This document shows, piece after piece, positions 42,378 through 58,108 of a stretch of 64,000 bases of DNA. The notes below the pieces were generated by a model. It was not told where the DNA came from and did no database searches. It worked only from the letters and a program-made list of their open reading frames with translations. Positions within the stretch are counted from its first letter, which is position 1. Each line of letters opens with the position of its first letter. This DNA comes from Mycolicibacterium tokaiense (lineage in GTDB: Bacteria > Actinomycetota > Actinomycetes > Mycobacteriales > Mycobacteriaceae), in NCBI RefSeq assembly GCF_010725885.1, contig NZ_AP022600.1, forward strand, positions 2,418,001 through 2,482,000. Reading direction: 5' to 3'. The translations under genes and the position numbers were made by a program.

Positions 42378-42459
42378 GTCCCAGGCATACCCGGTGGTCA
42401 GGGCCTGATGTGCGGCGCACGGTGTGAGATCCGGTACGTCGCCGGCACGCCCGAAGGAC

Positions 42460-42549
42460 TCCACATTGTGGAGAGCTTGACGCCGTCGCTATCGCCCGCC
42501 TATGGTCTAGCTCACATCCACAATATGGATATGGAGACCACATTATGGA
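42460..42549. promoter_or_regulatory. Three IclR operator repeats
   Basis: A repeated dyad with consensus TCCACA-N-TNTGGA occurs at 42460-42472 (TCCACA-T-TGTGGA, perfect), 42517-42529 (TCCACAATATGGA) and about 42537-42549 (ACCACATTATGGA, overlapping the iclR start). The copies lie between the DCC gene and iclR, upstream of the 12-gene operon. They are the best candidates for the IclR binding site and imply tight autoregulated control of the operon. Confidence 0.65.
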
Positions 42550-43354
42550 GATCGCGGGAGCGCAGAGCGCGTACCGGGTCCTCGACGTCCTGACGGAAGT
42601 CTCGCTCAATCCGGGCTCGACCGCGGGCGAAGTCGCCAAAGCAACACATTTGACCGCCCCGACAGCCCACCGGCTGCTGCGTGTGCTGTGCGATCGCGGG
42701 TTCGCGGTGCAGAACGAGGCGGGCAAGTACGTACCAGGTCCCCAGATGCGGGTGCTGGTCGGCGACCGCGTCGATCACGCCACCCTCGAGGAGATCGGCC
42801 GTCCGCTGCTCGCGCAGCTGCGGGACCGCTCCACCGAAACGGTGTTCCTGGCCGTTCGGGAAGGTCTGCAGCTCACCTATCTGGTGGTGATGACCTCATC
42901 ACACTCCGTGCAGATGTACGGCGAAGTCGGGCAACAGATTCCGCTGCACGCGACCAGCCAGGGCAAGGTCATCCTGGCATTCCTGCCGCCCGGTGTCGGA
43001 GAACGGATCATCGACCAGCTGGAGATGCCGCGCTACACCCCGTCCACCATCACCTCTGCCGCGGAGCTGCATGAGGCGATGTCACGAATTCGCCGCGACG
43101 GGTACGCCCTCAACCTCGAGGAGCGTGAGCTCGGCGTGCGGTCCGTCGCCGCGCCGGTGCTCGATCCTTCGGGCAACGTGGTGGCCTCGGTGTGCGTGGG
43201 TGGGCCCATCTTCCGCTTCTCCGAAGAGGACCTGCGTGGGAAGTTCGCCGACCTGGCGTGCGAGACCGCCGAAGCCATCAGCGCCGAACTGCTGCGGCGG
43301 TTCAAACCCGTGGAGCAGCTGGCCGACATCGACGGCGAGCGGTCCGTTCAGTGA
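42545..43354 (+). CDS. IclR family transcriptional regulator of the catabolic operon
   Basis: A 269-residue IclR protein. The N-terminal winged helix has STAGEVAKATHLTAPTAHRLLRVLCDRGFAV at about residues 25-55. The C-terminal effector-binding GAF-like domain has ATSQGKVILAFLP, RRDGYALNLEERELGVRSVAAPVLD and SVCVGGPIFRF. ATG 42545 lies inside the third operator copy, so RNA polymerase or ribosome access would be blocked by a bound regulator. The stop overlaps the MaoC start (GTGA). The effector is unknown and is presumably the transported compound or an intermediate. Confidence 0.9.
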   Translation: MEIAGAQSAYRVLDVLTEVSLNPGSTAGEVAKATHLTAPTAHRLLRVLCDRGFAVQNEAGKYVPGPQMRVLVGDRVDHATLEEIGRPLLAQLRDRSTETVFLAVREGLQLTYLVVMTSSHSVQMYGEVGQQIPLHATSQGKVILAFLPPGVGERIIDQLEMPRYTPSTITSAAELHEAMSRIRRDGYALNLEERELGVRSVAAPVLDPSGNVVASVCVGGPIFRFSEEDLRGKFADLACETAEAISAELLRRFKPVEQLADIDGERSVQ

Positions 43355-43785
43355 CGCAACAGGCCATGAAGACCTTCCACGATATGGAGATCGGGGTCCG
43401 TGCCGAGCACTCGGCAGTGGTCTCCGCCGACATCATCGGGGCCTACGCCCAGCTGTCGGGGGACCACAATCCCATCCACGAGGACGCCGACTATGCGGCC
43501 CGCACCCGCTTCGGCCGGCCGGTGGCGCACGGCATGCTGGTCGCCGGCTACGTCCAGACAGCGCTGACCCGTCTCGTCGCCCCCGGCGGCGTGTCCACCA
43601 GCTACCAGTTCGATCTTCTGGCGCCGGCTTTCGAAGGCGCCGCCATCACCGCGCAGGCAGTGTGCGCACAGCTCGATCCGGTGGCCCGACGGGCCACATT
43701 CACCATCACAGTCGTCGACGACACCACTCGGAAGCAGTTGATCAGCGGGTCCGCCGTCGTCGCGTTTCCCAAAGGAGAGAAATGA
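43351..43785 (+). CDS. MaoC-like (R)-specific enoyl-CoA hydratase
   Basis: A 144-residue hot-dog-fold hydratase. The catalytic motif YAQLSGDHNPIHEDADYA supplies the Asp/His pair, followed by GRPVAHGMLVAGYVQTALTRL. It hydrates or dehydrates 2-enoyl/3-hydroxyacyl thioesters. GTG 43351 overlaps the iclR stop; ATG 43366 (MKTFHDMEIG) is an alternative start without a clear ribosome site. The stop overlaps the binding-protein start (ATGA), so a CoA enzyme lies between a regulator and a transporter. Confidence 0.88.
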   Translation: MTQQAMKTFHDMEIGVRAEHSAVVSADIIGAYAQLSGDHNPIHEDADYAARTRFGRPVAHGMLVAGYVQTALTRLVAPGGVSTSYQFDLLAPAFEGAAITAQAVCAQLDPVARRATFTITVVDDTTRKQLISGSAVVAFPKGEK

Positions 43786-44900
43786 AGATCCGGACCATCC
43801 TGCCCGCCGCCGTCTGCCTCACCACCGCGCTCGCGATGACGGCATGCAGCTCGAGTGTGAACAACAACGCCGACCCGTCCGATACCGCCGCGCCCGCCTC
43901 GGAAGTTGAGGTCGACGACGGCGGATGCGCCGAGAACCGGGACCAGATCGCACAGCTGCAAGCCGACCTGAGCAAGAACCTGTACGGAATTGCCGCCGCT
44001 GAATCAGGCAAGGACGAGCGCACCAACCCCAACCCGATTCCCGAAGGTGAGCCCATCAAGATCACCTTCTCGGTGGAAGGCCTCAGCCACCCGTTCCTGG
44101 TCAAGCAGAAGCAGCTCGCCGAGGAGACCGCTGCGAAGCTGGGCGCCGAGATCAACGTGGTGAGCGCCAACGACGATGTGAACCAGCAGTTCAACGACAT
44201 CCAGACCGCCATCGCGCAGGGCACCGATGCGCTCATGATGATGCCCGCCACCACCCAGGGTCTGGACGCCGTGCTCACACAGGCTCAGGCCGCCGACATC
44301 CCGTACTTCTTCTCGCAGAAGGGAATGCTGGGTGTCGACCCGGTGTCTCAGGTGCTCGCCCCCTACTCCAACGAGGGCCAGCAGCTCGGCGAGTGGGTGG
44401 TGGAGCACTACCAGGGCCAAGAAGACGTCAACGTCGCGGTGATCTCCGGCATCCCCGGCGACCAGTCCAGCGATGCCCGGGTGAACTCGTTCCTGCTGCC
44501 GCTGCTGCGCTCGTGCAACTTCAACATCGTGGCCAACCAACCGGGCCAGTACCGCCGCGGGGACTCCGAGAAGGCCGCGCAGAACATGCTCGCTGCCAAC
44601 ACCGACATCGACCTGCTCTTCGGTGCGAATGACGAAGCGGCCCTGGGCGGCATCGCAGCGCTGAACTCCAGCGGTCGCGAGGGTGTGGATGTGGTGGGCC
44701 TGGATGGCCAGACCGACATGTTCGCCGCCATCCAGGCCGGCGACGCACTGGCGACGGTGATCCACAAGCCCACCGCCGGGATCGTCGTCGAGGAAATCGT
44801 CGACTACCTGCGCGGCAATCCGGTACCCGAGTACCGCGTTCTCGACGAGGACCTGGTGACCAAGGAAACCATCGAATCCGGCGCACAGCCGGCGTTCTGA
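43782..44900 (+). CDS. CUT2-type ABC transporter substrate-binding lipoprotein
   Basis: A 372-residue RbsB-like binding protein. The lipoprotein signal has lipobox MTAC (Cys22). An unusual segment of about 65 residues precedes the fold and contains Cys49 and a coiled-coil-like stretch (NRDQIAQLQADLSKNLYG). The periplasmic-binding fold starts at KITFSVEGLSHPFLVKQKQLAEE and includes ALMMMPATTQGL, GANDEAALGG and DVVGLDGQ. A second Cys (245) could pair with Cys49. AAAGGAGA precedes ATG 43782. CUT2 systems usually import sugars or cyclic polyols; the ligand here is unknown. Confidence 0.9.
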   Translation: MKIRTILPAAVCLTTALAMTACSSSVNNNADPSDTAAPASEVEVDDGGCAENRDQIAQLQADLSKNLYGIAAAESGKDERTNPNPIPEGEPIKITFSVEGLSHPFLVKQKQLAEETAAKLGAEINVVSANDDVNQQFNDIQTAIAQGTDALMMMPATTQGLDAVLTQAQAADIPYFFSQKGMLGVDPVSQVLAPYSNEGQQLGEWVVEHYQGQEDVNVAVISGIPGDQSSDARVNSFLLPLLRSCNFNIVANQPGQYRRGDSEKAAQNMLAANTDIDLLFGANDEAALGGIAALNSSGREGVDVVGLDGQTDMFAAIQAGDALATVIHKPTAGIVVEEIVDYLRGNPVPEYRVLDEDLVTKETIESGAQPAF

Positions 44901-44926
44901 CCGACTTCTCACACGACGGAGCAGTG

Positions 44927-45946
44927 ATGACCACTACCTCGGCACCACCTACGCCGCCAGATGCGCTGGAGCGCAGAGGAAAAGGACGAACCGGTCCCAA
45001 CCTGCGCCAGCTCGCCCAGCTGGGTCCGGTTGTCGCCCTGGTGCTGCTGGCCGCGGTGTTCGCTTTCAGCGCACCGAACTTCACCAGCGGCGCCAACCTG
45101 ACCAACGTCCTGCAGCAGGTGTCGATCACAGCGATCGCGGCGGTGGGCGCGACGGTGGTGATCCTGGTTGCGGGAATCGACCTGTCGGTCGGCTCGGTGG
45201 TGGCGCTCACCGGCAGCATCGCGGCGCTGTATCTCCAACACGCGATCCTCTCGACGGGGGCGTCGGCGGTGGTCGCGGTGCTCCTGAGCCTGGTGGTCGG
45301 CACCGCCTGCGGCTTCCTCAACGGGGTGCTCATCACCGTGTGCCGGGTGCCGGCCTTCATCGCCACCTTGGCGACGCTGACCGCGCTGCGGGGGATCGCC
45401 CTGCTCGTCACCGACAGCTACCCGATCTCGATCGGCAACAGCACCTTCAACCAGATCGGTGTCGGCAAGGTGGGCCCGGTGCCGATCCCGGTGATCATCA
45501 TGGCGGTGACGTTCGCCGTGGGGTATGTGATCCTGCACCGGCTCAAGATCGGGCGGCGCATTTACGCCGTCGGTGGCAATCGCGAAGCGGCCCGTCTGTC
45601 CGGCATCCGGGTCAATCGAGTGTTGTTGTTTGCGTTTACCTTTGCCGGACTGTGTGCCGGGATCGCCTCGGTGATCCTCACCGCCAAACTGTCCTCGGGC
45701 CAGCCCGCCGGTGCAGTCGGCTTCGAGCTCGACGTCATCGCCGCGGTGGTGGTGGGCGGCACCAGCCTGTTCGGTGGACGCGGCCGGCTGGCCGGCACCT
45801 TCCTCGGTGCGTTGGTGATAGCCGTGCTGGGCAACGGGCTGACGCTGATGAACGTCCCGTTCTACTGGCAACAGATCGTCACCGGAGCCGTCGTGGTGGC
45901 TGCCGTGGTGCTGGACCGGGTTACCCGAGGGGAGCCGGGCGAATGA
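44927..45946 (+). CDS. CUT2-type ABC transporter permease (RbsC-like)
   Basis: A 339-residue membrane protein with about 8-10 helices. CUT2 permease motifs are present: VILVAGIDLSVGSVVAL, FIATLATLTALRGIALL, YAVGGNREAARLSGIRV (cytoplasmic loop contacting the ATPase) and VVVGGTSLFGGRGRLAGTFLGAL. ATG 44927 is 5 bases after GGAG; GTG 44924 is too close. It ends in ATGA with the ATPase gene. Confidence 0.93.
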   Translation: MTTTSAPPTPPDALERRGKGRTGPNLRQLAQLGPVVALVLLAAVFAFSAPNFTSGANLTNVLQQVSITAIAAVGATVVILVAGIDLSVGSVVALTGSIAALYLQHAILSTGASAVVAVLLSLVVGTACGFLNGVLITVCRVPAFIATLATLTALRGIALLVTDSYPISIGNSTFNQIGVGKVGPVPIPVIIMAVTFAVGYVILHRLKIGRRIYAVGGNREAARLSGIRVNRVLLFAFTFAGLCAGIASVILTAKLSSGQPAGAVGFELDVIAAVVVGGTSLFGGRGRLAGTFLGALVIAVLGNGLTLMNVPFYWQQIVTGAVVVAAVVLDRVTRGEPGE

Positions 45947-47463
45947 GTGTGGCCGCGCCGGCGCGCACCGGACTCCTCCAGGCGACCGGCATCTCCAAGC
46001 ACTACGCCGGTGTCGCTGCGCTCGAAGACGTCTCGGTGACGCTGGAGCCCGGCAAGATCCACGCGCTGGTCGGTGAGAACGGCGCGGGCAAGTCAACGCT
46101 GTCGAAGATCCTGTCGGGATTCGCGACCGCGGACACCGGCACCGTCACCCTCGACGGTCAGCCGATCAACCCGAAGAATCCCACGCAGGCCGCCGGGTTG
46201 GGTATCGGCATCGTGCACCAGGAGCTGTCGGTGATCGGGTCCATCTCGGTTGCCGAGAACGTCCTGGTGAACGCCGAACCGTCGCGCTGGGGTGTGATCG
46301 ACCGCCGGGCCCTGGCTGCGCAGGCCCGCGATCACCTGGCCCGGGTGGGCCTGGACGTCGATCCCCGCCGCCAGGCCGGCGAGCTGTCCATCGCCGAACA
46401 GCAACTCATCGAGATCGCCCGCATCCTCGCCCAGGACGCCCACGTCGTGTTCTTTGATGAGCCGACATCTTCTCTGCCACACGATGATTCGGTACGGCTC
46501 CTGGGGTTGCTGCGGGAACTGCGCGACGACGGCGCCGCGGTGGTACTGATCAGCCATGACCTGCCGGAGGTGTTGGAGTATGCCGATACCGTCAGCGTGC
46601 TGCGCGACGGCCGGCACATCATCACCGCCCCGGCCGCCGAGTTCACCGAAGACTCGCTGATCAAGCACATGATCGGGCGGAACCTTGAGTCGGTCTATCA
46701 CGGCCACGAGGTGACAGCCGACCACAAACCGGCGGTGCTGTCCGTAGACCGGATCAGCGCGCCCGGCGTGGTGTCCGCGTCGCTGCAGGTGAGCCCCGGA
46801 GAGATACTCGGCATCGGCGGCCTGGTCGGCAGCGGCCGCACCGAGGTGCTGGCGGCGATCTACGGTGCCACTCGAATCACGGCAGGCGCCATGTCATTTC
46901 ACGGAAAGTCACACCGTCCGAGCCATCCCGGGGCGGCTCTGAACACCGGTATCGCACTGGTGCCCGAAGACCGCAAGAACCAGGGTCTGCACCTGGGTCT
47001 GCCCATCAGTACCAACATCGAACTCGCCAGCCTGGCTGCCATGAGCACCGGGCCGTGGCTGCGCCGCCGCAAGGGCGCGAAGATCGTCGACCACTTCTTC
47101 AAGGAGCTGCGCATCAAAGCGGCCAGCGCCGCCATGCCCGTGGGAGCGTTGTCCGGCGGCAACCAGCAGAAGGTGGCACTGGCCAAGGTGTTGGCCACCA
47201 AACCTGCGGTGCTGCTGCTCGACGAACCCACCCGTGGAATCGATGTGGGCGCCAAAGCTGAAGTGCACCGGCTGATCCGGAGCTTGGCCGACGAGGGCAT
47301 GGCCATCATCATGGTGTCCTCAGTGCTGCCCGAACTGCTCGGTGCGTCCGACCGCATCGTGGTGATGCGGGCCGGCCGCACCGTGGGCGAACTCAGCCGA
47401 GCCGAGGCCTCAGAGGAGGCCGTCATGAAGCTGGCGTTCCAGGGGGCGGTGGCCGATGACTGA
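45943..47463 (+). CDS. CUT2-type ABC transporter ATPase, two domains (RbsA-like)
   Basis: A 506-residue double ATPase. Domain 1 has Walker A GENGAGKST, Walker B VVFFDEPTSSLP, H-loop LISHDLPEV and signature LSIAEQQ. Domain 2 has a degenerate Walker A (GLVGSGRTEV), signature LSGGNQQ and Walker B LLLDEPTRGID. This asymmetry is normal for the family, where the first site is the main catalytic one. With the binding protein and permease, the importer is complete. Its stop overlaps the next gene by 8 bases. Confidence 0.94.
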   Translation: MSVAAPARTGLLQATGISKHYAGVAALEDVSVTLEPGKIHALVGENGAGKSTLSKILSGFATADTGTVTLDGQPINPKNPTQAAGLGIGIVHQELSVIGSISVAENVLVNAEPSRWGVIDRRALAAQARDHLARVGLDVDPRRQAGELSIAEQQLIEIARILAQDAHVVFFDEPTSSLPHDDSVRLLGLLRELRDDGAAVVLISHDLPEVLEYADTVSVLRDGRHIITAPAAEFTEDSLIKHMIGRNLESVYHGHEVTADHKPAVLSVDRISAPGVVSASLQVSPGEILGIGGLVGSGRTEVLAAIYGATRITAGAMSFHGKSHRPSHPGAALNTGIALVPEDRKNQGLHLGLPISTNIELASLAAMSTGPWLRRRKGAKIVDHFFKELRIKAASAAMPVGALSGGNQQKVALAKVLATKPAVLLLDEPTRGIDVGAKAEVHRLIRSLADEGMAIIMVSSVLPELLGASDRIVVMRAGRTVGELSRAEASEEAVMKLAFQGAVADD

Positions 47464-48166
47464 CAAAGTCGCAGTACTCACCGGCGCCGACGGCGGCCTG
47501 GGGCGCGCCGTGGCCCACCGGCTAGCCAAGGACGGCTTCTCACTCGTACTCGGGTATCACCCGGGCAGTGCGGCGCCGTCGATTCCCGGGGCGCTGGCCG
47601 TGCCTGCCGACGTCACCTCCGAAACCGATGTCGCCGAGCTGATCTCGGCCGCCATTGGAGAGTTCGGTCGTATCGACGCCCTGGTCACGCTGGCGGGAGT
47701 GATGGAACAGACCCTGCTGCCCGACCTGGATCTGGTGACCTGGAACCAGACCATCGCCGTCAACCTCACCGGCACGTTCCTGTGCGTCCAAGCGGCAGCT
47801 GAGGCGTTGACGCACACACAGGGCGCAGTGGTCACCATCGGTAGCCAGATCGGATACGTCGGCGGCATCAACTGCGCCGCCTACACCGCGTCCAAGGCGG
47901 GAGTCGGGGGCCTGACCCGGGCGCTCGCGCGCGAACTCGGACCAGCGGTCCGCGTCAACTGTGTGGCGCCTGGGCCCATCGAGACTCCGATGACAGCCGT
48001 GCACGCCACCCCGGAGTGGAGGGAACAGAAGACCAGAGCACTGGTCATGGGACGCTTCGGCACCCCCGACGAGGTGGCCACCGCGGTCGCCTGGCTGGTG
48101 TGTGACGAAGCGAGCTTCGTCACGGGGCAGACCATCAATGTCAATGGGGGAGGGGCGATGCCATGA
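47456..48166 (+). CDS. Short-chain dehydrogenase of the catabolic operon (first)
   Basis: A 236-residue SDR: TGADGGLGRAV, TLAGVMEQTLLPDLDLVTWNQ (NAG replaced by LAG), TIGSQIGYVGGINCAAYTASKAG (Ser, Tyr, Lys) and GQTINVNGGGAMP. It probably oxidises a hydroxyl in an intermediate. It starts inside the ATPase gene and overlaps the CoA-transferase start as ATGA. Confidence 0.9.
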   Translation: MTDKVAVLTGADGGLGRAVAHRLAKDGFSLVLGYHPGSAAPSIPGALAVPADVTSETDVAELISAAIGEFGRIDALVTLAGVMEQTLLPDLDLVTWNQTIAVNLTGTFLCVQAAAEALTHTQGAVVTIGSQIGYVGGINCAAYTASKAGVGGLTRALARELGPAVRVNCVAPGPIETPMTAVHATPEWREQKTRALVMGRFGTPDEVATAVAWLVCDEASFVTGQTINVNGGGAMP

Positions 48167-49743
48167 GGCTCAGTCAACTGACCACACCGGAGTTCCTGTC
48201 CGCACACGACGCGGTGGAACGGATCCCGGACCGGGCGCGGCTGCTCGTGGAGGCTTCCGGGGGTGGTGTCATAGAGCCGTCCGGGCTGTTGAACGCGCTG
48301 GCCGAGCGTTACCGCCGCACCGGCGGCCCCGGTGAGCTGGCCGCATACTTCTGCAGCGGGGTGGGGGACCGTAACGGGTCCGGCATGGACGTGCTGGCGC
48401 AGCCGGGGCTGTTGCGCAGCGCGATCGCCGGGCACTGGGCCATGACGCCCACGCTGTCCAAGATGGCCCATGACGGGGACATCGAGGCCTACAACCTGCC
48501 CCAGGGTGTGCTGGCGCAGTTGCTGCGCGAAAGTGCAGCCAAACGGCCAGGTTTGATCACCAAGGTCGGATTGGGCACGTTCTGTGATCCGCGGCAGGGC
48601 GGTGGGCGGCTCAACAGTGCCACCACGACCGATCTCGTGGAGGTCCTGGAGATCAAGGGTGAGGAGTACCTGTTCTACCCCAGCCCGTCCTTCGATGTCG
48701 CTTTCATCCGCGGCACCACCGCCGATGAACACGGCAACCTGACACTCGAGCACGAGACAGCCAAGCTGGGGGTGCTGGCGGCCGCAACGGCGGCGCGCAA
48801 CTGTGGCGGACTGGTGATCGCGCAGGTGAAGCGGGTGGCCGCGGTGCACACCCTCAACCCCAAGAGTGTGGTGGTGCCCGGTCATCTGATCGACATCGTG
48901 GTGGTGCAGGAAGACCAGTGGCAGACCGCGATCAACGAGTACAACCCGGCCTTCTCCGGCGAGGTGTATGTGCCGTTCGGCCGGTCGCCGGCAATGCCCC
49001 TTTCGGAACGGAAAGTGGTGGCACGCAGGGCACTCGACGAGATCAAGCCGGCCTCGGTGGTCAACCTCGGGGTCGGAATGGCCGACGGGGTGGCCACCGC
49101 TGCGCTGGAAGAGGATCGGCTCAGCGAAATCACGCTGACGGTCGAGCAAGGCATGGTCGGCGGCGTCCCGGAACGCGGCGTCATCTTCGGAGTGTCCTGG
49201 AACCCGGAAGCCGTGATCGAACACGCCTCGCAGTTCGACTTCTACGACGGCGGCGGCCTGGATGTCGCCTGCCTGGGGTTCGCCGAGGTGGACTCCGACG
49301 GCAACGTCAACTCATCGCTGGTCGACGGCCGCATTTTCGGCGCCGGTGGCTTCATCAACATCTCGCAGGCCGCCAAGAAGGTCGTGTTCTGCGGGACGCT
49401 CACCGCAGGCGGGCTGCGCATCGACCTCACCGACGGACACCCGAGGGTGACCTCGGAAGGCAGACACCGCAAGTTCATCGACAAGGTCCGCCAGGTCACC
49501 TTCAACGCCCATCTGGCCCGCGAACGTGGTCAGGAGGTCATCTACGTCACCGAACGCGCGGTGTTCGCCCTCGGCGAGGACGGTCCTGTCCTGATGGAGG
49601 TCGCTCCCGGCTGGACCGCGGAGCAGGTGATCGCACTGATGGACTTCCGCCCCAAACTCGCCGACGACATCACCACCATGTCGGCGTCGCTCTTCACCTC
49701 CCAACGACGCACCCCCCAAACCCCGACCCAAGAGGAGAACTGA
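48163..49743 (+). CDS. Family I CoA-transferase (fused, YdiF-like)
   Basis: A 526-residue CoA-transferase containing both alpha-type (about 1-240) and beta-type (about 270-480) halves in one chain. The catalytic glutamate is Glu328 in TVEQGMVGGVPERG, followed by the MDFRPKLADDI C-terminal block typical of acetate/propionate CoA-transferases. It would load CoA on the carboxylic acid made by the ADH/ALDH pair, without ATP. It is located between the first SDR and the ADH; only one base separates its stop from the ADH start. Confidence 0.9.
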   Translation: MRLSQLTTPEFLSAHDAVERIPDRARLLVEASGGGVIEPSGLLNALAERYRRTGGPGELAAYFCSGVGDRNGSGMDVLAQPGLLRSAIAGHWAMTPTLSKMAHDGDIEAYNLPQGVLAQLLRESAAKRPGLITKVGLGTFCDPRQGGGRLNSATTTDLVEVLEIKGEEYLFYPSPSFDVAFIRGTTADEHGNLTLEHETAKLGVLAAATAARNCGGLVIAQVKRVAAVHTLNPKSVVVPGHLIDIVVVQEDQWQTAINEYNPAFSGEVYVPFGRSPAMPLSERKVVARRALDEIKPASVVNLGVGMADGVATAALEEDRLSEITLTVEQGMVGGVPERGVIFGVSWNPEAVIEHASQFDFYDGGGLDVACLGFAEVDSDGNVNSSLVDGRIFGAGGFINISQAAKKVVFCGTLTAGGLRIDLTDGHPRVTSEGRHRKFIDKVRQVTFNAHLARERGQEVIYVTERAVFALGEDGPVLMEVAPGWTAEQVIALMDFRPKLADDITTMSASLFTSQRRTPQTPTQEEN

Positions 49744-49744
49744 C

Positions 49745-50878
49745 ATGCGCACCCGAGCCGCGGTCACCTACGGATTGAACACCCGCTTCGAGGTCAAGGA
49801 AGTCGAGCTCGACGAGCCCGGCCCCAACGAGGTGCTGGTGCACCTGGTGGCCTCCGGCATCTGCCACTCCGACATGCATCACGTCACCGGCGACCAGATA
49901 GCCGCGCTCCCGATGATCTTCGGCCACGAAGGCGCCGGCGTCGTGGACAAGGTGGGCCCGAACGTCACCCACGTGGTCCCCGGCGATCACGTGGTGATGT
50001 CCTACCTCCCGTCCTGCGGTACCTGCCGGTGGTGCACCGACGGGCAGACCAACCTCTGCGATCTGGGTGCCCACACCGTGGAGGGGCCGCAGATCGACGG
50101 AAGCTACCGCTTCCATGACGACGACGGCGTGAACCTCGGACAGTTCTGCCTGGTGTCCACCTTCAGCGAATGGACGGTGGTACCCGGTCAGTCGGTTGTC
50201 AAGGTGGACAAGCACTACCGGCTGGAGCGGGCCTGCCTGGTCGCCTGCGGTGTCACCACCGGCGTGGGTACCGCGATCTACCGCGGCGGGGTCGAGCCCG
50301 GTGAGGACGTGATGGTCTACGGCGTCGGCGGGATCGGTATGAACATCGTGCAGGGCGCCAAGATCGCCGGGGCCAAGCGCATCATCGCCTGCGATACCAA
50401 CGACTGGAAACTGGAGCAGGCCAAGTTGTTCGGCGCTACCCACACGGTCAACCCGAACACCCAGGATCCGGTCGAGTTCGCCACCGAGTTGACCTGGGGT
50501 GTGGGCGTGGACAAGGCCTTCGAGGCCATCGCCACCGCCGAGACCATCGGTCAGGCCGTGCGCTCGGTCCGCAAGAGCGGCACCGTCGCCGTCGTCGGCC
50601 TGACGCGGCACGATCAGCCCAGCATCCCAGTGAACCCGTCGGACTTCGTGCTGTGGCAGAAAACCCTCACCGGTTCACTCAACGGTGGCTGCAACCCACG
50701 CAATGACATTCCGAAGATGCTCAAGCTGTGGGATTCCGGGCAGATCAATCTCGATGGTCTGGTGACCAAGGAGTACCGCATCGAGCAGATCAACGAGGCC
50801 TATGACGACCTGCTGGCCGGCAAGAACCTGCGCGGCGTGATCCGTTACGAATGGGCAGACAACGGAGTTCCGCAGTGA
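49745..50878 (+). CDS. NDMA/mycofactocin-type zinc alcohol dehydrogenase
   Basis: A 377-residue MDR alcohol dehydrogenase of the same clade as AdhB at 21827. Catalytic zinc ligands are in SGICHSDMHH and GHEGAGVV; the structural cluster is CGTCRWCTDGQTNLC; the cofactor motif is GVGGIGMNIVQGAK. NDMA-dependent enzymes of this group are thought to pass electrons to mycofactocin. It probably converts the imported alcohol to an aldehyde. GAGGAGAACTGAC precedes ATG 49745, and the stop overlaps the next start (GTGA). Confidence 0.92.
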   Translation: MRTRAAVTYGLNTRFEVKEVELDEPGPNEVLVHLVASGICHSDMHHVTGDQIAALPMIFGHEGAGVVDKVGPNVTHVVPGDHVVMSYLPSCGTCRWCTDGQTNLCDLGAHTVEGPQIDGSYRFHDDDGVNLGQFCLVSTFSEWTVVPGQSVVKVDKHYRLERACLVACGVTTGVGTAIYRGGVEPGEDVMVYGVGGIGMNIVQGAKIAGAKRIIACDTNDWKLEQAKLFGATHTVNPNTQDPVEFATELTWGVGVDKAFEAIATAETIGQAVRSVRKSGTVAVVGLTRHDQPSIPVNPSDFVLWQKTLTGSLNGGCNPRNDIPKMLKLWDSGQINLDGLVTKEYRIEQINEAYDDLLAGKNLRGVIRYEWADNGVPQ

Positions 50879-52029
50879 CACTCACGTATTCACTGGACGC
50901 CGATGCCGCGCAGTTCCTCGCCGTGGTCGGGGACTTCTGCACCAGCCGGGTGGGTCCGCGCGCCCAGGACATCGATCTGTCCGGAGAGTTCTTCCCCGAC
51001 CTGCTCTCCGATGCCGCGGATCTCGGCCTGCAGGGCCTGATCTTCGGTGACGACGGCAGCATCGACCCCACCATGTTCGCCCTGGCACACGAGACCACCG
51101 AGCTTGTCGCGTCGTACTCCGGCGCGGTGGCGCTGGGTATCTCGATCGCCCGGCTGCACGGATACCTGCTGGCCGCGTACGCACCGCCCGACGTCCGGGA
51201 CCGGTGGCTGCCGGGACTGATCGACGGCTCGCTGCGCGGTAGTTTCGCGCTGAGCGAGCCCCACTCGGGCACCGACATTCGGGCCGGGCGGACCGTGGCC
51301 GTCGAACACCCCGATGGAACGGTGACCATCACCGGCGAGAAGGCCTGGATCACGCAGTCTCCTGAGGCGCACTTCTGCATCGTGCTGGCCAAGCTGGGTT
51401 CGGCAGACCGTGACGCCCCCACCGCGGCGTTTGTCGTCCCGCTGGACGCTGCCGGGGTCACGGTCGGCAAGGACGAGCCGATGTCCGGTTTCCGCGGAAT
51501 GCCGATGGCAAATGTGCATTTCGACAACTGCCGGGTGCCGTCTGACTGGCGGCTGCAGACGGATGGATTCCGCGGCATGCTGGAAGGACTCAACCTGGCC
51601 CGGCTCGACGCGGGATGTTACGGCGTCGGGTTCATGCGGGCGGCGCTGCGGGAATGCGGCGCCTACGTGCGCGATCGGCAGGCGTTCGGCAGGCCCCTGG
51701 CCGAATTGCAAATCGTGCAGGAGAAGCTGGGGAAGATGCACGCCGACTATCTGGCCGCGCGGGGACTGCTCCGGGACGGGGTCACCAGCTACGCCGCCGG
51801 CGGCGGCGGTGACTCCCACCTGATCTCGGCTGCCAAGATGTTCGCCACCGACGCGGCCATGCGCAACACCGTCGAGGCCGTTCAGTTGCTCGGCGGGTAC
51901 GGCGTCCACCTTCACTACCCCGTCCAGCGACTGATGCGCGACGCCAAGATCACCCAGATCATCGACGGCACCAGCGAGATCCACGCCTTGATGCTCGGCC
52001 GCGCCGCAGCGCGTGCCGACTGGACCTGA
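50875..52029 (+). CDS. Acyl-CoA dehydrogenase with Asp at the usual catalytic Glu position
   Basis: A 384-residue ACAD: FALSEPHSGTDIRAGRT, TITGEKAWITQ, RDRQAFGRPLAELQIVQEKLGKM, and LLGGYGVHLHYPVQRLMRDAKI. The C-terminal signature reads IIDGTSEIH, where most relatives have (Y/G)EGTSEI; the catalytic base position is therefore Asp364 instead of Glu. Two other ACADs in this window keep Glu. Asp could still act as a base, or the base may lie elsewhere in the structure as in some ACAD groups. GTG 50875 overlaps the ADH stop. Confidence 0.88.
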   Translation: MTLTYSLDADAAQFLAVVGDFCTSRVGPRAQDIDLSGEFFPDLLSDAADLGLQGLIFGDDGSIDPTMFALAHETTELVASYSGAVALGISIARLHGYLLAAYAPPDVRDRWLPGLIDGSLRGSFALSEPHSGTDIRAGRTVAVEHPDGTVTITGEKAWITQSPEAHFCIVLAKLGSADRDAPTAAFVVPLDAAGVTVGKDEPMSGFRGMPMANVHFDNCRVPSDWRLQTDGFRGMLEGLNLARLDAGCYGVGFMRAALRECGAYVRDRQAFGRPLAELQIVQEKLGKMHADYLAARGLLRDGVTSYAAGGGGDSHLISAAKMFATDAAMRNTVEAVQLLGGYGVHLHYPVQRLMRDAKITQIIDGTSEIHALMLGRAAARADWT

Positions 52030-52044
52030 CCTCGAGGAGAAGAC

Positions 52045-53487
52045 ATGACACTGAGCGGATCCCTGCAGCGGGCCCTGTTCATCGACGGCGAGTTCGTCGG
52101 TTCCGACGGAGAGATCTCACCGGTCACCGACAAGGCCAGTGGTGAGGTGATCGGCGAGTCGATCACCGCCACCGATGTCGATGTGGACCGGGCCGTCGCC
52201 GGAGCGGTTGCTGCGCAACGGGAGTGGTACACCACCCCCGCCACCGAACGGGCAGCCATCCTGCGCCGGGGCGGTGCGATCCTGGAGCGGGAGGCGGGTC
52301 GGTTCAAGGAGATCCTGATCCGCGAGGGTGGTGCGATCGGGCCCAAGGCCGAGGGCGAGATCGGCGCCAGCGTCATCGAGTTCTTCCAGGCCGCCGAGCT
52401 GGCCACCACCCCGTTGGGCGAGATCATCCCCTCCGGTCAGCGGGGTCGGGTCAACATCGTCGAACGTCGTCCCGTCGGGGTGGTGGGACTCATCACCGCG
52501 TGGAACGCGCCGGTGCACATCGCCATGCGGGTCCTGGCCCCTGCCATCGCGCTGGGCAACACGGTGGTGCTCAAACCGGCGCCGGAGACCCCGTTCACGG
52601 GCGGATTGATGCTGGCCGAAGTGTTGGCCGAGGCCGGCCTGCCCGCTGGTGTGGTCCAGGTTCTCACCGGCGGACCCGCTGGAGCCCGACTGGTGAGCCA
52701 TCCCCAGGTGGACATGATCCACTTCACCGGCTCCGAGGACACCGGGCGCCGGATCAACGTGGCGGCCGCGCCGCTGCTCAAACGGGTGGCGCTGGAACTC
52801 GGCGGCAACAACGCCAGCATCGTATTGTCCGACGCCGACGTGGAACTGGCCGCGCGGTGCGGTGCGGGCTCGTCGTTCGGGCACCAGGGGCAGGTGTGCA
52901 TCGCCACCGGGCGGCACATCGTGCTGGCCGACGTCGCCGCGGACTATGTGGCGGCGCTCTCGGCGGAAGCGGCGAAGCTGACCGTCGGCGACCCCTACAC
53001 CGCTGCGGTGGACCTCGGTCCGATGCTGTCGCAGCGCCAGGTCGACAAGGCCCTGGCCATGGTGAGCAGCAGTGTCGAGCTGGGTGCCCGGGTGGTCGAA
53101 GGCGGCACCGCCGACGGCGTGTTCCTGCGCCCCACCGTGGTCGACCAGGTTCGCCCCGGCATGGTCCTGCACGACGAGGAGGTGTTCGCCCCGATCGCGC
53201 CGGTGACGGTGGTGGACTCCGTGGACGAAGCCCTCAAGATCGTCAACGGCACCCGCTTCGGACTGTCCACCGCGGTGTTCAGCCGTGATCTCGATACGGC
53301 CTGGAGTGTGGCCGACCAGGTGCGATCTGGCATGGTCCATGTCAACGACGGCACCGCGCTGCACGAGTCGCAGGTGCCCTTCGGCGGCACTGCGGCCTCG
53401 GGGTTGGGTGATGACCTCGGCGGCCGCGCCAACATCGACCTGCTCACCGAGCGTCGGTGGACCAGCCTGCAGCGGAATGTGTTGTGA
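52045..53487 (+). CDS. Aldehyde dehydrogenase (benzaldehyde/vanillin dehydrogenase-like)
   Basis: A 480-residue ALDH: LITAWNAPVHIAM, GNTVVLKPAPETP, FTGSEDTGRR, LELGGNNASIV with the general-base Glu, GQVCIATGR with catalytic Cys285, and EEVFAPIAPV. The VHIAMRVLAPA variant and the short C-terminus fit the aromatic/cyclic aldehyde group rather than sugar-acid enzymes, but this is weak evidence. It would oxidise the aldehyde produced by the NDMA-type ADH. GAGGAGAAGAC precedes ATG 52045. The stop overlaps the hydratase start. Confidence 0.92.
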   Translation: MTLSGSLQRALFIDGEFVGSDGEISPVTDKASGEVIGESITATDVDVDRAVAGAVAAQREWYTTPATERAAILRRGGAILEREAGRFKEILIREGGAIGPKAEGEIGASVIEFFQAAELATTPLGEIIPSGQRGRVNIVERRPVGVVGLITAWNAPVHIAMRVLAPAIALGNTVVLKPAPETPFTGGLMLAEVLAEAGLPAGVVQVLTGGPAGARLVSHPQVDMIHFTGSEDTGRRINVAAAPLLKRVALELGGNNASIVLSDADVELAARCGAGSSFGHQGQVCIATGRHIVLADVAADYVAALSAEAAKLTVGDPYTAAVDLGPMLSQRQVDKALAMVSSSVELGARVVEGGTADGVFLRPTVVDQVRPGMVLHDEEVFAPIAPVTVVDSVDEALKIVNGTRFGLSTAVFSRDLDTAWSVADQVRSGMVHVNDGTALHESQVPFGGTAASGLGDDLGGRANIDLLTERRWTSLQRNVL

Positions 53488-54203
53488 CCGACGGTGCTGT
53501 GCGACTGGAGATCTCGGGCCCGGTCGCCCGGATCGTGCTGGACCGGCCGCGCAAGCGCAATGCGCTCAGCGCCCATCTGGTCGCTGAACTAGGGGACCGG
53601 CTCGAGGACATCGCGGGCTCCGATGCCCGGGTGGTGCTGCTCACCGCCGAGGGGTCGGTGTTCTGCGCCGGCGCCGACACCGTCGAGTTCAGTGCAGCTT
53701 CGGCAGAAGCGGTGCGCGGCCGGTGGACGCGGCTGGGGCAGCGGGTGTTCCGGTCACTGGCGGAGCTGCCGCAGACCACCGTCGCGGTTCTTGCGGGCGG
53801 CGCTTATGGCGGCGGCCTGGAACTGGCCATGCACTGCGATTTCCGGGTGGCCTCCGACACCGCGGTCCTGGCGCTGCCGGAGGCCACGCTGGGCACCACC
53901 CCCGGATGGTCCGGCCTGAGCAGGATCCGGGAGATCGCGGGGGTGGCCGCTGCCCGTCGACTGGCCCTGGTGGGACAACCCGTCAGCGCCGCAGAAGGGC
54001 ACCGGCTCGGCATCGTGGACATCGTGACCGCCGACGTGCAGTCCGCCGCAGACGACCTGGTGCAGGATCTGCTGAACACCGCCCCCGGCGCGCAATCGAT
54101 TCTCAAACGCGTGCTCGCCTGCGACGCGTCGGCACTCATCGACTCGCTGGCAGGTGGCTACCTCGTCGCCTCCGGCGAAACCAATTCCAGGAGACACTCA
54201 TGA
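53484..54203 (+). CDS. Enoyl-CoA hydratase/isomerase (crotonase family)
   Basis: A 239-residue crotonase-fold protein. The oxyanion-hole motifs are GSVFCAGADTVEF and LAGGAYGGGLELAMHCDFRVAS. At the usual catalytic glutamate region it has ATLGTTPGWSGLSRI, with Glu before LG replaced by Thr, so it may not be a simple hydratase (isomerase, hydrolase or lyase possible). GTG 53484 overlaps the ALDH stop; the stop overlaps the next SDR (ATGA). With MaoC, it gives the operon two enoyl-CoA-type enzymes. Confidence 0.88.
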   Translation: MTDGAVRLEISGPVARIVLDRPRKRNALSAHLVAELGDRLEDIAGSDARVVLLTAEGSVFCAGADTVEFSAASAEAVRGRWTRLGQRVFRSLAELPQTTVAVLAGGAYGGGLELAMHCDFRVASDTAVLALPEATLGTTPGWSGLSRIREIAGVAAARRLALVGQPVSAAEGHRLGIVDIVTADVQSAADDLVQDLLNTAPGAQSILKRVLACDASALIDSLAGGYLVASGETNSRRHS

Positions 54204-54922
54204 CCAGAACAGTTCTCATCGCCGGATCCTCCCGCGGGATCGGCGCCGCCGCCGCCCGCCACGAGGCCGCCCGCGGATCCCGGGTGATCCTGCACGGCCG
54301 CAGTGATTCGGTTGCGCTGAAGGAATTCTCGGGAGAGCTGGATGCACCGGCCTACCACTGCGACGGGCAGGATGCGGCCGCGGTGCAGCAGCTGGTGGAC
54401 ACCGCGTTGGCCGACGTGGGCGCCATCGACGCGCTGATCTGCACGCTGGGCAGCGTGTCGGCCACCGACGCCCTGGCGGGGTCCACCGAGGACTGGATCG
54501 CCGAATACCGCTCCAATGTCCTGGGACCGGTGAACTTCATCCGGGCGGTGGCGCCCTCGATGCTGGCCAACGGTGGTGGCCGCATCGTCACGGTCTCCTC
54601 CATCCGGGGCCGCGACAACCTGGCAAGCCCCGAGGTGACGGCGTACAGCGCCGCCAAGGCGGCACTGGAGAACGTCACAGTGTCGTTCGCCAAGGCGCTG
54701 GCACCGTCGATCACCGTCAACTCCGTCGCCCCGGGCTTCGTCCTGACCGACATGTCCGAAACGTGGTCGGACGAGGTGCGCAAGGAGGTGGCGACCAATC
54801 TGCTGGGCCGCGCCGCGCAGCCGCAGGAGATCGCCGCCCTGCTGTGTTTTCTGGTCAGCGACGGCGCCAGTTTCATCACCGGCCAGACCGTCCTCGCCGA
54901 CGGTGGACTGGACGCCCGCTGA
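54200..54922 (+). CDS. Short-chain dehydrogenase of the catabolic operon (second)
   Basis: A 240-residue SDR: AGSSRGIGAAA, CTLGSVSATDAL in place of NNAG, TVSSIRGRDNLASPEVTAYSAAKAAL (Ser, Tyr, Lys) and GQTVLADGGLDAR. It probably makes the 3-oxo intermediate before carbon-carbon cleavage. It overlaps the hydratase stop and its own stop overlaps DUF993 by one base (TGATG). Confidence 0.9.
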   Translation: MTRTVLIAGSSRGIGAAAARHEAARGSRVILHGRSDSVALKEFSGELDAPAYHCDGQDAAAVQQLVDTALADVGAIDALICTLGSVSATDALAGSTEDWIAEYRSNVLGPVNFIRAVAPSMLANGGGRIVTVSSIRGRDNLASPEVTAYSAAKAALENVTVSFAKALAPSITVNSVAPGFVLTDMSETWSDEVRKEVATNLLGRAAQPQEIAALLCFLVSDGASFITGQTVLADGGLDAR

Positions 54923-56085
54923 TGACACACCTGATGCTGCCCGCCTCCGACGGCACTGTCGCACCGGTGGAGCTCGTGGCCCCGCCGGTTCTGGTGACCG
55001 GCTCCGCCCCGCCCACCAGCCGCGTCGTGTACGCGGCGGCCCATGTGGTGGCCGACCCTCTGCGGGCGTGCGATGCGGTGGCAGGTGTGGAGCAGATCGA
55101 CTGGGACGCCACACTAAAATTGCGCCGTCGCCTGTGGTCACTGGGGCTCGGTGTCGCGGAGTCCATGGACACCGCCCAGCGCGGGATGGGTCTGGACTGG
55201 GCCGGCGCCCGCGAGTTGGCGCTACGGACCCTCGCCGACGCCCCCGCGCACGGCGGTGACGTGGTGGTGGGGGTGGCCACCGACCAGATCGAAGGCCCGA
55301 CAACCGATCTCGGCCTCATCCGAGATGCCTACCTGGAACAGATCGCCGATATCGAGAGCGCCGGTGGCGCTGTGGTCATGATGGCCAGCCGGCACCTGGC
55401 CGCAGCGGCCCGCAGCCCGGACGACTATGCCAAGGTCTACGGCGAGGTGCTGGCGCAGGCCGGCCGCCCGGTCATCCTGCATTGGCTTGGATCCATGTTC
55501 GACCCCGCGCTTGCCGGCTACTGGGGACACGACGAGCCCAAGGCCGCGATGGCAACCGTCGTCGACATCATCGCCGCCCACGTGGACAAGGTGCACGGCA
55601 TCAAGGTCTCGCTCCTGGATGCCGCACTGGAATCACTGCTGCGCGAGCAGATCCCCACACCCGCACGGGTGTTCACCGGCGACGACTTCAACTACGTCGA
55701 CCTGATCGCCGGTGACGGCACCAGACACAGTGACGCATTGCTCGGCGCCTTTGCCGCGGTGCCCCGGTTCGCGTCAGCGGCCTTCGCCCGGTTGGACGCC
55801 GGTGACGTCCGCGGGTTCCGTGAGATCCTGGAGCCGACGCTGCCGCTGAGCCGCCTGGTGTTCCGCGCCCCCACCCAGTACTACAAGGTGGGCGTTGCCT
55901 GGCTGACGTACCTCGACGGCGGGCAGGACCACTTCCGGATGCTGAAGGGCTTCGAGACCGGTCGCAGTCTGCTGCATCTGGCCGAGCTGGTACGGGTGGC
56001 AGGCGGGCTGGGGCTGTTCGCCGACCCTGAATTGGCCGCGGCGCGGGTGTCGGCCTACTTCGCCGTGCAGGGCATCCGGGTGTGA
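54922..56085 (+). CDS. DUF993 family protein, dihydrodipicolinate-synthase-like aldolase
   Basis: A 387-residue protein of the DUF993 family, usually annotated as dihydrodipicolinate-synthase-like. It fits a TIM-barrel class I aldolase pattern. Lys228 in VHGIKVSLLDAAL matches the GIK motif that carries the Schiff-base lysine in DapA-type aldolases. Other conserved-looking blocks are RVVYAAAHVVADP, SMDTAQRGMGLDW, VILHWLGSMFDPALAGYWG and FTGDDFNYVDLI. The function is not established. As the last gene of an operon with no thiolase, it is the best candidate for carbon-carbon bond cleavage. Confidence 0.82.
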   Translation: MTHLMLPASDGTVAPVELVAPPVLVTGSAPPTSRVVYAAAHVVADPLRACDAVAGVEQIDWDATLKLRRRLWSLGLGVAESMDTAQRGMGLDWAGARELALRTLADAPAHGGDVVVGVATDQIEGPTTDLGLIRDAYLEQIADIESAGGAVVMMASRHLAAAARSPDDYAKVYGEVLAQAGRPVILHWLGSMFDPALAGYWGHDEPKAAMATVVDIIAAHVDKVHGIKVSLLDAALESLLREQIPTPARVFTGDDFNYVDLIAGDGTRHSDALLGAFAAVPRFASAAFARLDAGDVRGFREILEPTLPLSRLVFRAPTQYYKVGVAWLTYLDGGQDHFRMLKGFETGRSLLHLAELVRVAGGLGLFADPELAAARVSAYFAVQGIRV

Positions 56086-56113: not shown

Positions 56114-58108
56114 GTGTCAGCCCCACGCGCCTCCGCGGCCCCCGAAGACCTGCGCCGCCTGGCGGCCGCCCACGGCGTGGCCACGTCCTACAACAACGAG
56201 CGGCGTGAGCCCGTAGAGGTCGACGCCGACGTCATCATCACCGTGCTCGGACTCCTCGACGTGGAGGCGGCCACCGAAGCGGACCGGCGCCGCGAACTTG
56301 CCAAAGTCGCTGAACTCGATCAGGCCGGCATGATCGCCCCCACCGTCGCGGTGCGGGTCGACGGTGGCACCCACACCGTGCCCGGCGCCCGGTTGTTGGT
56401 CGGTGAGGACGGAACGCAGATCGAGGTGGAGGATTCTCTCCCGGTGGATCTGCCGGTCGGCTGGTACCGGTTGCACACCAGTCAGGGCCAGGAGGTCACC
56501 CTGGTTGCGGCGCCGCCGAAGGTGCCGACTGCGCCGGTGAGCTGGGGGTGGATGCTGCAGCTGTACGCGCTGCGCTCGGCTCGGTCGTGGGGCATCGGCG
56601 ATCTGGGTGATCTGCACGAGTTCCTGGACTGGACAGCTCGTGAGCACGGCGCCGGCGCGATACTGCTGAACCCCCTGCACGCGCCTGGGCCCACCCATCC
56701 GGTGCAGCCGTCGCCTTACACCCCGTCGAGTCGCCGGTTCGCCAACCCGCTGGCTCTTCGGATCGAGGACCTCGACGCCTATCTTCAGGCCGACCCCACC
56801 ACCCGCGCCGAGGTGGATGCCCTGCGGGTCAGCGCCACCACCGAACGCATCGACCACGACCTGGTCTGGGCCGCCAAACGTGATGCGCTGGAGCTGTTGT
56901 GGCGTTCGGCGGGACGGCCCGACGCGATCGCGGAGGCGTCGGCGGGGTTGCGGGACTGGGCCACCTATTGCGCTCTGGCAGAACGGCACGGGGGCCGGTG
57001 GAGCCGGTGGCCGTCGGAGCTGCGTGACGTCGGCAGCCCGGCGGTGGCCGCCGCTCGGCGAAATTTGGCTCCTCGGGTGGCATTTCACGCATGGGTGCAG
57101 CAGCAGTGCGCCGACCAGCTGACGGGTCTGCGGCGCCATGCCCATGACTCCGGCATGGCGGTGGGTGTGCTGCATGATCTTGCGGTGGGGGTGGACGCCG
57201 ACGGCGCCGACGCCTGGGCGTTGGCCGAGGTTCTGGCCACGGGGGTGAGCGTGGGAGCGCCGCCGGACAACTTCACCCCGCGCGGGCAGGACTGGGGTCT
57301 GCCGCCCTGGCGACCGGACCGGCTGGCCGCCACCGGATACGCCGCGCTGCGCGACATGCTGCGTGCTGTCCTGCACCATGCCGACGGACTGCGTATCGAC
57401 CATGTGGCCGGTCTGTGGCGGCTGTGGTGGATCCCGCCGGGCGACACCCCCGACCGCGGCACCTACGTGCACTACGACGCCGAGACCATGCTGGCCGTAC
57501 TCGCCTTGGAGGCGCACCGCGCCGACGCCATCGTGGTGGGGGAGGATCTGGGTACCGTCGAACCCGAGGTGACCCAGGCCCTCGCCGACAACGAGATGCT
57601 GGGGTGCGCGGTGTCCTGGTTCACCCGCGACCAGTCGCAACCGGGGGAGCCGCTGCTGCCGCCGTCGCGGTGGCCGTCACGCGCGGCTGCCAGTCTGTCC
57701 ACCCACGACCTGCCGACCGCGGCCGGCTTCCTGCAGGGGGAGCACGTGCGGGCGCGGGCCGAGCTGGGCCTGCTCGACGACGTGCCGGCCGAGCAGGCCA
57801 CTGCGGACCGCGAGCGGGCCGAGTGGCTGGAACTGTTGCGCAGCGAGGGCGTCCTGGACGGGGCGCAGCCCGACGACGCGGAGATCATCACGGCCATGCA
57901 CCGTCTGCTGGCGCGTACGTCGAGCCGGCTCAAGCTGATCTCGCCGTACGACGTGCTCGGTGAGGTCCGGCAGCCGAATCTGCCCGGCACGGTGGACGAA
58001 TACCCGAATTGGCGCCTACCGCTGCCGCAGACGCTCGAGGAGTTGATGGCCGATCCGCGCGTCGCCGATGTGATCAAGGCGTTCCGGGGCGCGCTGCCGG
58101 ACTGCTAG
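56114..58108 (+). CDS. malQ: 4-alpha-glucanotransferase (amylomaltase)
   Basis: A 664-residue GH77 enzyme that transfers 1,4-alpha-glucan segments in maltodextrin/glycogen metabolism. Motifs: LYALRSARSWGIGDLGDL, LNPLHAPGPTHPVQPSPY, LRIDHVAGLWRLWWIP with the nucleophile Asp, IVVGEDLGTVEPEV with the acid/base Glu, and SLSTHDLPTAAGF. The N-terminal extension of about 160 residues is usual for actinobacterial MalQ. It starts with GTG 56114, 28 bases after DUF993; it is probably a separate transcription unit in function. Confidence 0.95.
   Translation: MSAPRASAAPEDLRRLAAAHGVATSYNNERREPVEVDADVIITVLGLLDVEAATEADRRRELAKVAELDQAGMIAPTVAVRVDGGTHTVPGARLLVGEDGTQIEVEDSLPVDLPVGWYRLHTSQGQEVTLVAAPPKVPTAPVSWGWMLQLYALRSARSWGIGDLGDLHEFLDWTAREHGAGAILLNPLHAPGPTHPVQPSPYTPSSRRFANPLALRIEDLDAYLQADPTTRAEVDALRVSATTERIDHDLVWAAKRDALELLWRSAGRPDAIAEASAGLRDWATYCALAERHGGRWSRWPSELRDVGSPAVAAARRNLAPRVAFHAWVQQQCADQLTGLRRHAHDSGMAVGVLHDLAVGVDADGADAWALAEVLATGVSVGAPPDNFTPRGQDWGLPPWRPDRLAATGYAALRDMLRAVLHHADGLRIDHVAGLWRLWWIPPGDTPDRGTYVHYDAETMLAVLALEAHRADAIVVGEDLGTVEPEVTQALADNEMLGCAVSWFTRDQSQPGEPLLPPSRWPSRAAASLSTHDLPTAAGFLQGEHVRARAELGLLDDVPAEQATADRERAEWLELLRSEGVLDGAQPDDAEIITAMHRLLARTSSRLKLISPYDVLGEVRQPNLPGTVDEYPNWRLPLPQTLEELMADPRVADVIKAFRGALPDC

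Follow-up and report, generated by a model that had tools for sequence, protein, structure and literature searches.

How might a bacterium break a carbon-carbon bond with an operon that encodes a sugar-type importer and most of the enzymes of beta-oxidation, and in which no thiolase is found? The question is raised by a 64,000-nucleotide stretch of the 6.33 Mb genome of Mycolicibacterium tokaiense (NZ_AP022600.1, positions 2,418,001 to 2,482,000; hereafter the window), in which 13 open genes follow one another on the plus strand as a single run (42545-56085) that closes with a gene of the DUF993 family. We propose, tentatively and with somewhat less than even confidence, that this is a horizontally spread operon for polyol import, in which DUF993 would act on a free keto-polyol and a short-chain coenzyme A (CoA) module would operate without thiolase. 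The proposal is backed by the recurrence of the same 13 genes in eight of 396 genomes and by a paired operator-like site found in this genome only at this locus; by the DHDPS fold of DUF993, its invariant Lys230 and the sugar-type dehydrogenase and isomerase genes that neighbour it; and by the repeated joining of a CoA-transferase to DUF993 clusters, by an acryloyl-CoA reductase model (matched under its cut-off) and by a precedent in Anaerostipes.

A conserved thirteen-gene operon

The run opens with an IclR-family regulator (42545-43354; PF01614, PF09339) and a MaoC-like hydratase (43351-43785; PF01575), followed by the substrate-binding protein (43782-44900; PF13407, Peripla_BP_4), permease (44924-45946; PF02653, BPD_transp_2) and ATPase (45943-47463; two ABC_tran stretches, PF00005) that together define a CUT2 ABC importer. 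Next come a short-chain dehydrogenase (SDR1, 47456-48166), a single-chain CoA-transferase of the YdiF/FadX type (48163-49743; PF01144), an NDMA-dependent, mycofactocin-type alcohol dehydrogenase (ADH, 49745-50878), an acyl-CoA dehydrogenase (50851-52029), an aldehyde dehydrogenase (ALDH, 52045-53487; PF00171, 468 bits), a crotonase (53457-54203; PF00378), a second short-chain dehydrogenase (SDR2, 54200-54922) and DUF993 (54922-56085; PF06187, 548 bits over 381 positions, gathering cut-off 24 bits). Gaps measure at most 26 bases and overlaps at most 31, with successive spacings from IclR to DUF993 of -4, -4, +23, -4, -8, -4, +1, -28, +15, -31, -4 and -1. The largest gap, 23 bases, becomes 26 if the permease starts at the ATG at 44927; the 28- and 31-base overlaps arise when the acyl-CoA dehydrogenase and the crotonase are read from their first starts, later ones being possible for both. 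The gene series, its order, its families and its gaps of at most 26 bases had been put forward in an earlier note made from the sequence alone (the original prediction), and are borne out here.

A search with the CoA-transferase (E 1e-100) in 396 genomes of the genus returned 17 places in 15 genomes. Eight of these are 85-100% identical, and all eight lie in an operon of identical gene content and order: the window, G056 (L088, L100), G352 (L106), G041 (L107), G403 (L108), G303 (L109), G298 (L110) and G362 (L111). The copy in G041 is split over two contigs, L107 ending in SDR2 and contig L094 carrying the end of an SDR2 and then a DUF993. In L106 (4156-4868), the match to SDR2 consists of two overlapping pieces, possibly a frame break or an assembly error. 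Of the remaining nine places, five are in loci where DUF993 is arranged differently (L092, L093, L095, L101, L116) and four show no DUF993 (L112-L115, the contig of L115 being short). A DUF993-cluster CoA-transferase homologue with one internal TGA is present in G041:C25 (L041, L101).

With the binding protein as query (E 1e-70), three of 401 genomes in a family sample gave a match: the window genome and a pair from another genus. In these sister-genus copies (L144, L145), most genes are 68-88% identical to those of the window operon; MaoC is 53-54% identical and stands in front of IclR, SDR1 is in two pieces in L144, and the crotonase frame is interrupted in both. A divergent block of LacI, CoA-transferase, crotonase and MFS genes, and with it a second CoA-transferase and crotonase, adjoins the operon. 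Close relatives of the binding protein are also present outside the genus, for example in Rhodococcus jostii and Rhodococcoides fascians (72%). The operon is real and conserved.

Searches for thiolase, ligase and kinase genes

Twelve thiolase N-domains from the same genome, used as tblastn queries (E 1e-8) with no positive control, gave no match in the 64 kb window and none in 24 related loci; these N-domain queries missed a gene end annotated as 3-oxoadipyl-CoA thiolase, about 7 kb from DUF993 in the L005 stretch. The genome holds 24 matches to PF00108, and none of the 13 matches listed falls in the window. A complete beta-oxidation spiral, with its thiolase inside the operon, was thus not found, as the original prediction had said of the series. 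Nor does any of the 58 genome matches to PF00501 (CoA ligase), all checked by position, lie in the window. Among the related loci the only convincing ligase is in L092 (34% over 509 residues); matches of 25-31% between the ligase query set and acyl-CoA dehydrogenase genes, and once ADH, were counted as noise. There is likewise no kinase or sugar isomerase among the 13 genes, in agreement with the same prediction.

Fold and active site of DUF993

The structure model of DUF993, compared by VIA-align on 1000 Foldseek matches (the underlying alignment contains row L087 twice), has the (beta/alpha)8 fold of the DHDPS/NAL superfamily. Lys230 (numbered from 54916) falls within residues 226-232 of the model, which form the sixth strand of the barrel, and is invariant in 103 of 103 aligned rows; by strand count, it would occupy the position of the Schiff-base lysine of DHDPS/NAL class I aldolases. 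The pyruvate-binding motif of these aldolases, GTTGE, is absent: its place after strand 2 is taken by A(E)xMDTxQRG, and strand 5, again by strand count, has His where DHDPS/NAL enzymes have Tyr. DUF993 shares fold and strand-6 lysine with the superfamily (PF00701) and differs from it in its low identity (12-17%), in lacking GTTGE and in matching only PF06187 and not PF00701 (Pfam, E 0.001). The original prediction was right in taking DUF993 for a DapA-like protein; the likeness lies in the fold and the lysine, and does not extend to a sequence link or to the motif. Membership of the BKACE family was rejected on the same Pfam result.

In a sample of 298 genomes from the order, 117 have a DUF993, as do 21 of 198 in a genus sample. 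A solved structure, 4dnh, dates from 2012; a literature search under the names DUF993 and PF06187 found no paper.

Importer and catabolic enzymes

The operon binding protein, permease and double ATPase belong to the same families as CUT2 sugar importers of the RbsB type, from which the operon differs in having neither kinase nor isomerase. When the binding protein was aligned to RbsB (1dbp), 8 of the 12 residues that we take to be its ribose contacts were replaced (N13, F16, N64, D89, R90, S103, F164 and Q235 by H, L, M, Q, K, A, Y and H), and F15, R141, N190 and D215 were kept. Because of these replacements, ribose uptake was rejected. Steroid and terpene substrates were also dropped, as nothing was found that points to either.

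Motifs of the CoA-transferase, acyl-CoA dehydrogenase, crotonase, MaoC (DxNPxH, 8/8), SDR1 and SDR2 (both with YxxxK), ALDH (one motif) and ADH are identical in the eight copies read, as are those of DUF993 in the seven copies where it was read. The CoA-transferase scores 487 bits against YdiF (2ahu) and 381 bits against the FadX model, under the cut-off of 750. ADH exceeds the cut-off of TIGR03989 (482 against 440 bits), and the mycofactocin maturase (TIGR03962) is over its cut-off in nine of the ten operon genomes, the window genome included and G403 being the miss; ADH thus qualifies as a mycofactocin-dependent, NDMA-type enzyme.

The acyl-CoA dehydrogenase carries, within IIDGTSE, an Asp at the position of the Glu of butyryl-CoA dehydrogenase (1buc) in 8/8 copies; that Glu is the catalytic base. 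Its best NCBIfam model, like that of the corresponding enzyme of the Rhodococcus cluster L003, is acryloyl-CoA reductase, at 200 and 334 bits respectively (cut-off 640). Enoyl-CoA hydratases of the crotonase family use two catalytic glutamates, and both are present, in GGLELA and LPEATLG, in the eight copies read. For this reason the crotonase is kept as a hydratase, and the idea that it cleaves a carbon-carbon bond was dropped, although it might perform other chemistry as well.

DUF993 neighbourhoods and their CoA-transferases

Neighbours of DUF993 were counted by tblastn with reference proteins within at most 10 kb, as far as the contigs reach, in the best 80 of at least 593 loci; these were chosen as the most similar to the window DUF993, so the counts are not those of a random sample. 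TIM isomerase is near 70 of them, Gfo/Idh near 69, LacI near 53, CoA-transferase near nine and glycerate kinase near eight. The window genome itself has a second DUF993 of the common Gfo-DUF993-TIM kind (L007, G000:C1:4192296-4193444). Its isomerase is closest to 7vpf, 3qc0 and SMc04130; its Gfo gene is closest to the oxidoreductase 3oqb, with scyllo-inositol dehydrogenase and 1,5-anhydrofructose reductase further off, and resembles the levoglucosan dehydrogenase and inositol 2-dehydrogenase models at scores under their cut-offs. SMc04132, a DUF993 protein of S. meliloti, is listed, in the excerpt of one paper, only as an uncharacterised protein (PMC12542648). A link between DUF993 and the GMC/TIM pathway for C-glycosides was dropped: a word search of two papers for DUF993-like or CoA genes gave no match (PMC12724307, PMC10807413), and two others yielded only general passages (PMC8563793, PMC10628242).

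Clusters that combine DUF993 with CoA-type enzymes take several forms. Beside the window operon, there are L003 and L077/L116, with CUT2, Gfo, TIM and glycerate kinase genes; a rhizobial form with LacI, Gfo, CoA-transferase, crotonase, ALDH and a divergent DUF993 (L005, L032, L036, L038, L139), of which L068 is a version with no Gfo or crotonase match; and L080, L041, L092, L095, L051 and L093. In L139, on Sinorhizobium meliloti pSymB (CP090106.1, 3663480-3680637), a sugar ABC transporter, ALDH, crotonase, CoA-transferase, Gfo-type reductase and LacI accompany the divergent DUF993, which places a CoA-type cluster in a species amenable to laboratory work. The co-occurrence of DUF993 with CUT2 and acyl-CoA dehydrogenase genes, which the original prediction had proposed to look for, is found in the eight operon copies that carry DUF993 and in L003, L077/L116 and L155.

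The closest of these relatives is the plasmid cluster of Rhodococcus sp. USK13 (L003), whose DUF993 is 69% identical to that of the window. It and its likes (L155 in G684; L077 and L116 in M. aquaticum) share CUT2, CoA-transferase, acyl-CoA dehydrogenase and SDR genes with the operon, and L003 also ADH and ALDH. What they have in addition is Gfo/Idh, TIM isomerase and glycerate kinase, joined in L003 by GMC and aldo-keto reductases, and their CoA-transferase is only about 42-43% identical to that of the operon; unlike the operon, L003 has no crotonase or MaoC annotated. Glycerate kinase is present in the DUF993/CoA-transferase clusters L003, L080, L116 and L155 and absent from the window operon; for those four clusters, this suggests that glycerate is among the end products.

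On a tree of 103 DUF993 rows, 73 of which have Gfo and TIM without CoA-transferase, the CoA-transferase label requires six changes, at least four of them forced by supported branches. This tree was made by a quick method without bootstrap, has long branches and includes loci fetched for having a CoA-transferase. It omits L001 and L002 (genes identical with L007 and the window), L110 (same genome as L009), L101 (the same as L041), L107 (a contig without DUF993), L139, L144, L145, L155 and L156, and keeps one locus twice (L077 and L116). The DUF993-linked CoA-transferases also fail to form one clade on their own 29-row tree (two changes needed). Together, the trees indicate that the association between CoA-transferases and DUF993 clusters arose on more than one occasion.

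A paired palindrome before IclR

Three operator-like palindromes of the form WCCACAWTRTGGA precede IclR, at 42460 (where the original prediction set the start of the series), 42517 and 42537; a fourth, weaker one is at 43376. The first, TCCACATTGTGGA (42460..42472), is kept in G056 (L100, 3633). The next two form a pair, 42517..42529 lying 20 bases from 42537..42549, which overlaps the IclR start codon. The weaker site, inside MaoC (43376..43388, one mismatch), is kept in L100 at 2718. The window contains 11 matches with at most two mismatches against 3.97 expected, a number reached by none of 100 shuffles. Genome-wide, the loose form CCACANTNTGG matches 12 times forward and 7 times in reverse, and so is rarer than its reversed control (19 and 25 times). 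The strict form CCACAWTRTGG occurs at this locus only, and no other two places among the matches listed in the genome have the 20-base spacing. The pair stands before IclR in most other copies as well, with 20 bases in L100, L106, L108, L109, L110 and L111 and 19 in L144 and L145; L107 has one site with the pattern used. We infer that IclR binds the paired palindromes and controls the operon. No thiolase was found elsewhere under the same operator, the pair (the one site type tested) having been found only at this locus, and a shared regulon of that kind had been named in advance as a finding that would undo the original prediction.

Flanking genes

The operon is flanked 5' by a DCC1-like gene on the minus strand (41952-42464) and 3' by a 4-alpha-glucanotransferase (56114-58108). 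Further upstream, a block of acyl-CoA dehydrogenase, SDR and acyl-CoA dehydrogenase genes (36908-40102) also lies beside the operon in G056 (L100; 89-92%) and is possibly linked to it in function. G056 shares the downstream luciferase-like gene of the window as well (89%), and not the glucanotransferase. Within the roughly 2-4 kb covered on either side of L106 and L108-L111, the window flank genes have no convincing match; in G362, a glycerate kinase (L111, 1131-2123) lies directly 5' of IclR and the operon. Since the flanks differ between copies, the operon occupies more than one neighbourhood. Between the upstream block and the DCC1-like gene, 40191-41933 encodes a protein of 580 residues that matches no Pfam family and has a long N-terminal part rich in Ser, Asp and Thr.

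Discussion

According to the reading that we favour, the CUT2 importer would take up a polyhydroxy compound other than ribose, and the mycofactocin-linked ADH, ALDH and SDRs would oxidise its alcohol groups to a ketone and an acid, in an order that their families leave to conjecture. DUF993, with its DHDPS fold and strand-6 lysine, would be an aldolase-type enzyme forming a Schiff base, and would cleave or rearrange a free, non-CoA and probably non-pyruvyl beta-hydroxyketone supplied by a dehydrogenase. The CoA-transferase would activate a short acid, and the resulting acyl-CoA, of about C3-C4, would then be processed by the acyl-CoA dehydrogenase, by one of the two hydratases (crotonase or MaoC) and by an SDR, with IclR controlling the whole through the paired palindromes. 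Because the carbon-carbon bond would be broken outside the CoA stage, this module would need neither ligase nor thiolase; with a short acyl chain and cleavage before the CoA stage, thiolase would be dispensable.

Two published routes offer partial parallels. In Anaerostipes, inositol is converted to propionate by an aldolase that yields 3-oxopropionate, followed by a 3-oxoacid CoA-transferase, enoyl-CoA hydratase and acyl-CoA dehydrogenase, with no thiolase step in the excerpt available (PMC8355322). As described there, that module differs in being anaerobic and reductive and in its aldolase, IolJ, acting on a phosphorylated intermediate, and the excerpt makes no mention of DUF993. In deoxyribonate catabolism by Klebsiella michiganensis and Pseudomonas simiae, a sugar acid is oxidised at C3 as a CoA ester or as the free acid; for Klebsiella, oxidation of the CoA ester and thiolase cleavage are proposed, and the CoA-transferase, encoded in a cluster with glycerate kinase, may return glycerate (PMC6365646). 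Unlike the operon, these routes use a CoA-synthetase and thiolase, or BKACE, and DUF993 does not figure in the excerpt (PMC6365646). A literature search found no published description of the operon, in keeping with the view that no described pathway has this gene set.

Several results weigh against our reading. DUF993 was not found at the operon end or in the flanks read of either sister-genus copy, which is why eight of ten copies (one across contigs) have it; the G684 genome does hold one at another place, in a cluster (L155) that resembles the Rhodococcus plasmid cluster L003 (other genes 89-98%), whereas no DUF993 turned up anywhere in the G900 genome (74% complete). These copies speak more strongly than any other result against an obligatory last step by DUF993. 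The usual companions of DUF993, TIM isomerase and Gfo/Idh, are missing from the operon, hhalign found no sequence link between DUF993 and DapA, NCBIfam models for the short-chain enzymes remain under their cut-offs, and the chain length of about C3-C4 is a guess.

The alternative that survives best is ordinary beta-oxidation, in which an imported hydroxylated alcohol or acid would be converted to a 3-ketoacyl-CoA and cleaved by a housekeeping thiolase, DUF993 being a handler of side products or a recent addition. The genome has 24 PF00108 matches, the operon encodes every enzyme type up to 3-ketoacyl-CoA with motifs kept, and the two sister-genus copies do without DUF993. The DUF993 tree, moreover, mixes the operon copies with L003 and L092, which have other arrangements, as would be expected if DUF993 had been added. 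Set against this, DUF993 is kept in 8/8 copies within the genus (in one case across contigs), where it overlaps SDR2 or directly adjoins it; the thiolase N-domain queries came up empty in the 24 related loci; and CoA-transferase and DUF993 were joined more than once. We regard this explanation as possible, though doubtful.

A more speculative scheme makes the operon a self-priming loop, in which the CoA-transferase would shift CoA from the 3-ketoacyl- or 3-hydroxyacyl-CoA product to the next acid and DUF993 would cleave the freed keto acid through a Schiff base, with no ligase, ATP or thiolase spent. A CoA-transferase in place of a ligase, the lack of any thiolase found in the operon, the 3-oxoacid type of related CoA-transferases (scot/YdiF relatives) and the dehydrogenases that accompany DUF993 elsewhere, which would yield free keto compounds, all suit it. 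However, it presumes both the direction and the donor of the CoA-transferase, two copies lack DUF993, and DUF993 would need to take a carboxylate as substrate despite the missing GTTGE; we consider the loop improbable. Equally slim are the chances of the wider idea in which such an ATP-free loop would place DUF993, a Schiff-base enzyme, as a third kind beside thiolase and BKACE, a widespread retro-aldolase for non-phosphorylated keto-sugars recruited more than once into CoA-dependent pathways.

The original proposal that DUF993 itself cleaves a 3-keto- or 3-hydroxyacyl-CoA in place of thiolase fits the aldolase fold, the position directly after SDR2 and the absence of a thiolase find in the operon, but it is probably wrong and the least credible of these schemes, given that the invariant residues are common to the DUF993 of loci without CoA-transferase (the 73 Gfo and TIM rows), that the 14 positions marking the operon copies lie outside the 81 near-invariant ones, and that two operon copies lack the gene. 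Overall, the interpretation first given to this locus is partly supported.

If the fold, the lysine and the neighbours mean what they suggest, the common DUF993 family would gain a Schiff-base activity on a non-phosphorylated keto-polyol. The operon would join that activity to CoA chemistry, a link made more than once. Identification of the substrate would add a route for sugar-like carbon to the metabolism of soil actinobacteria, and might account for a set of beta-oxidation-like genes that has no thiolase.

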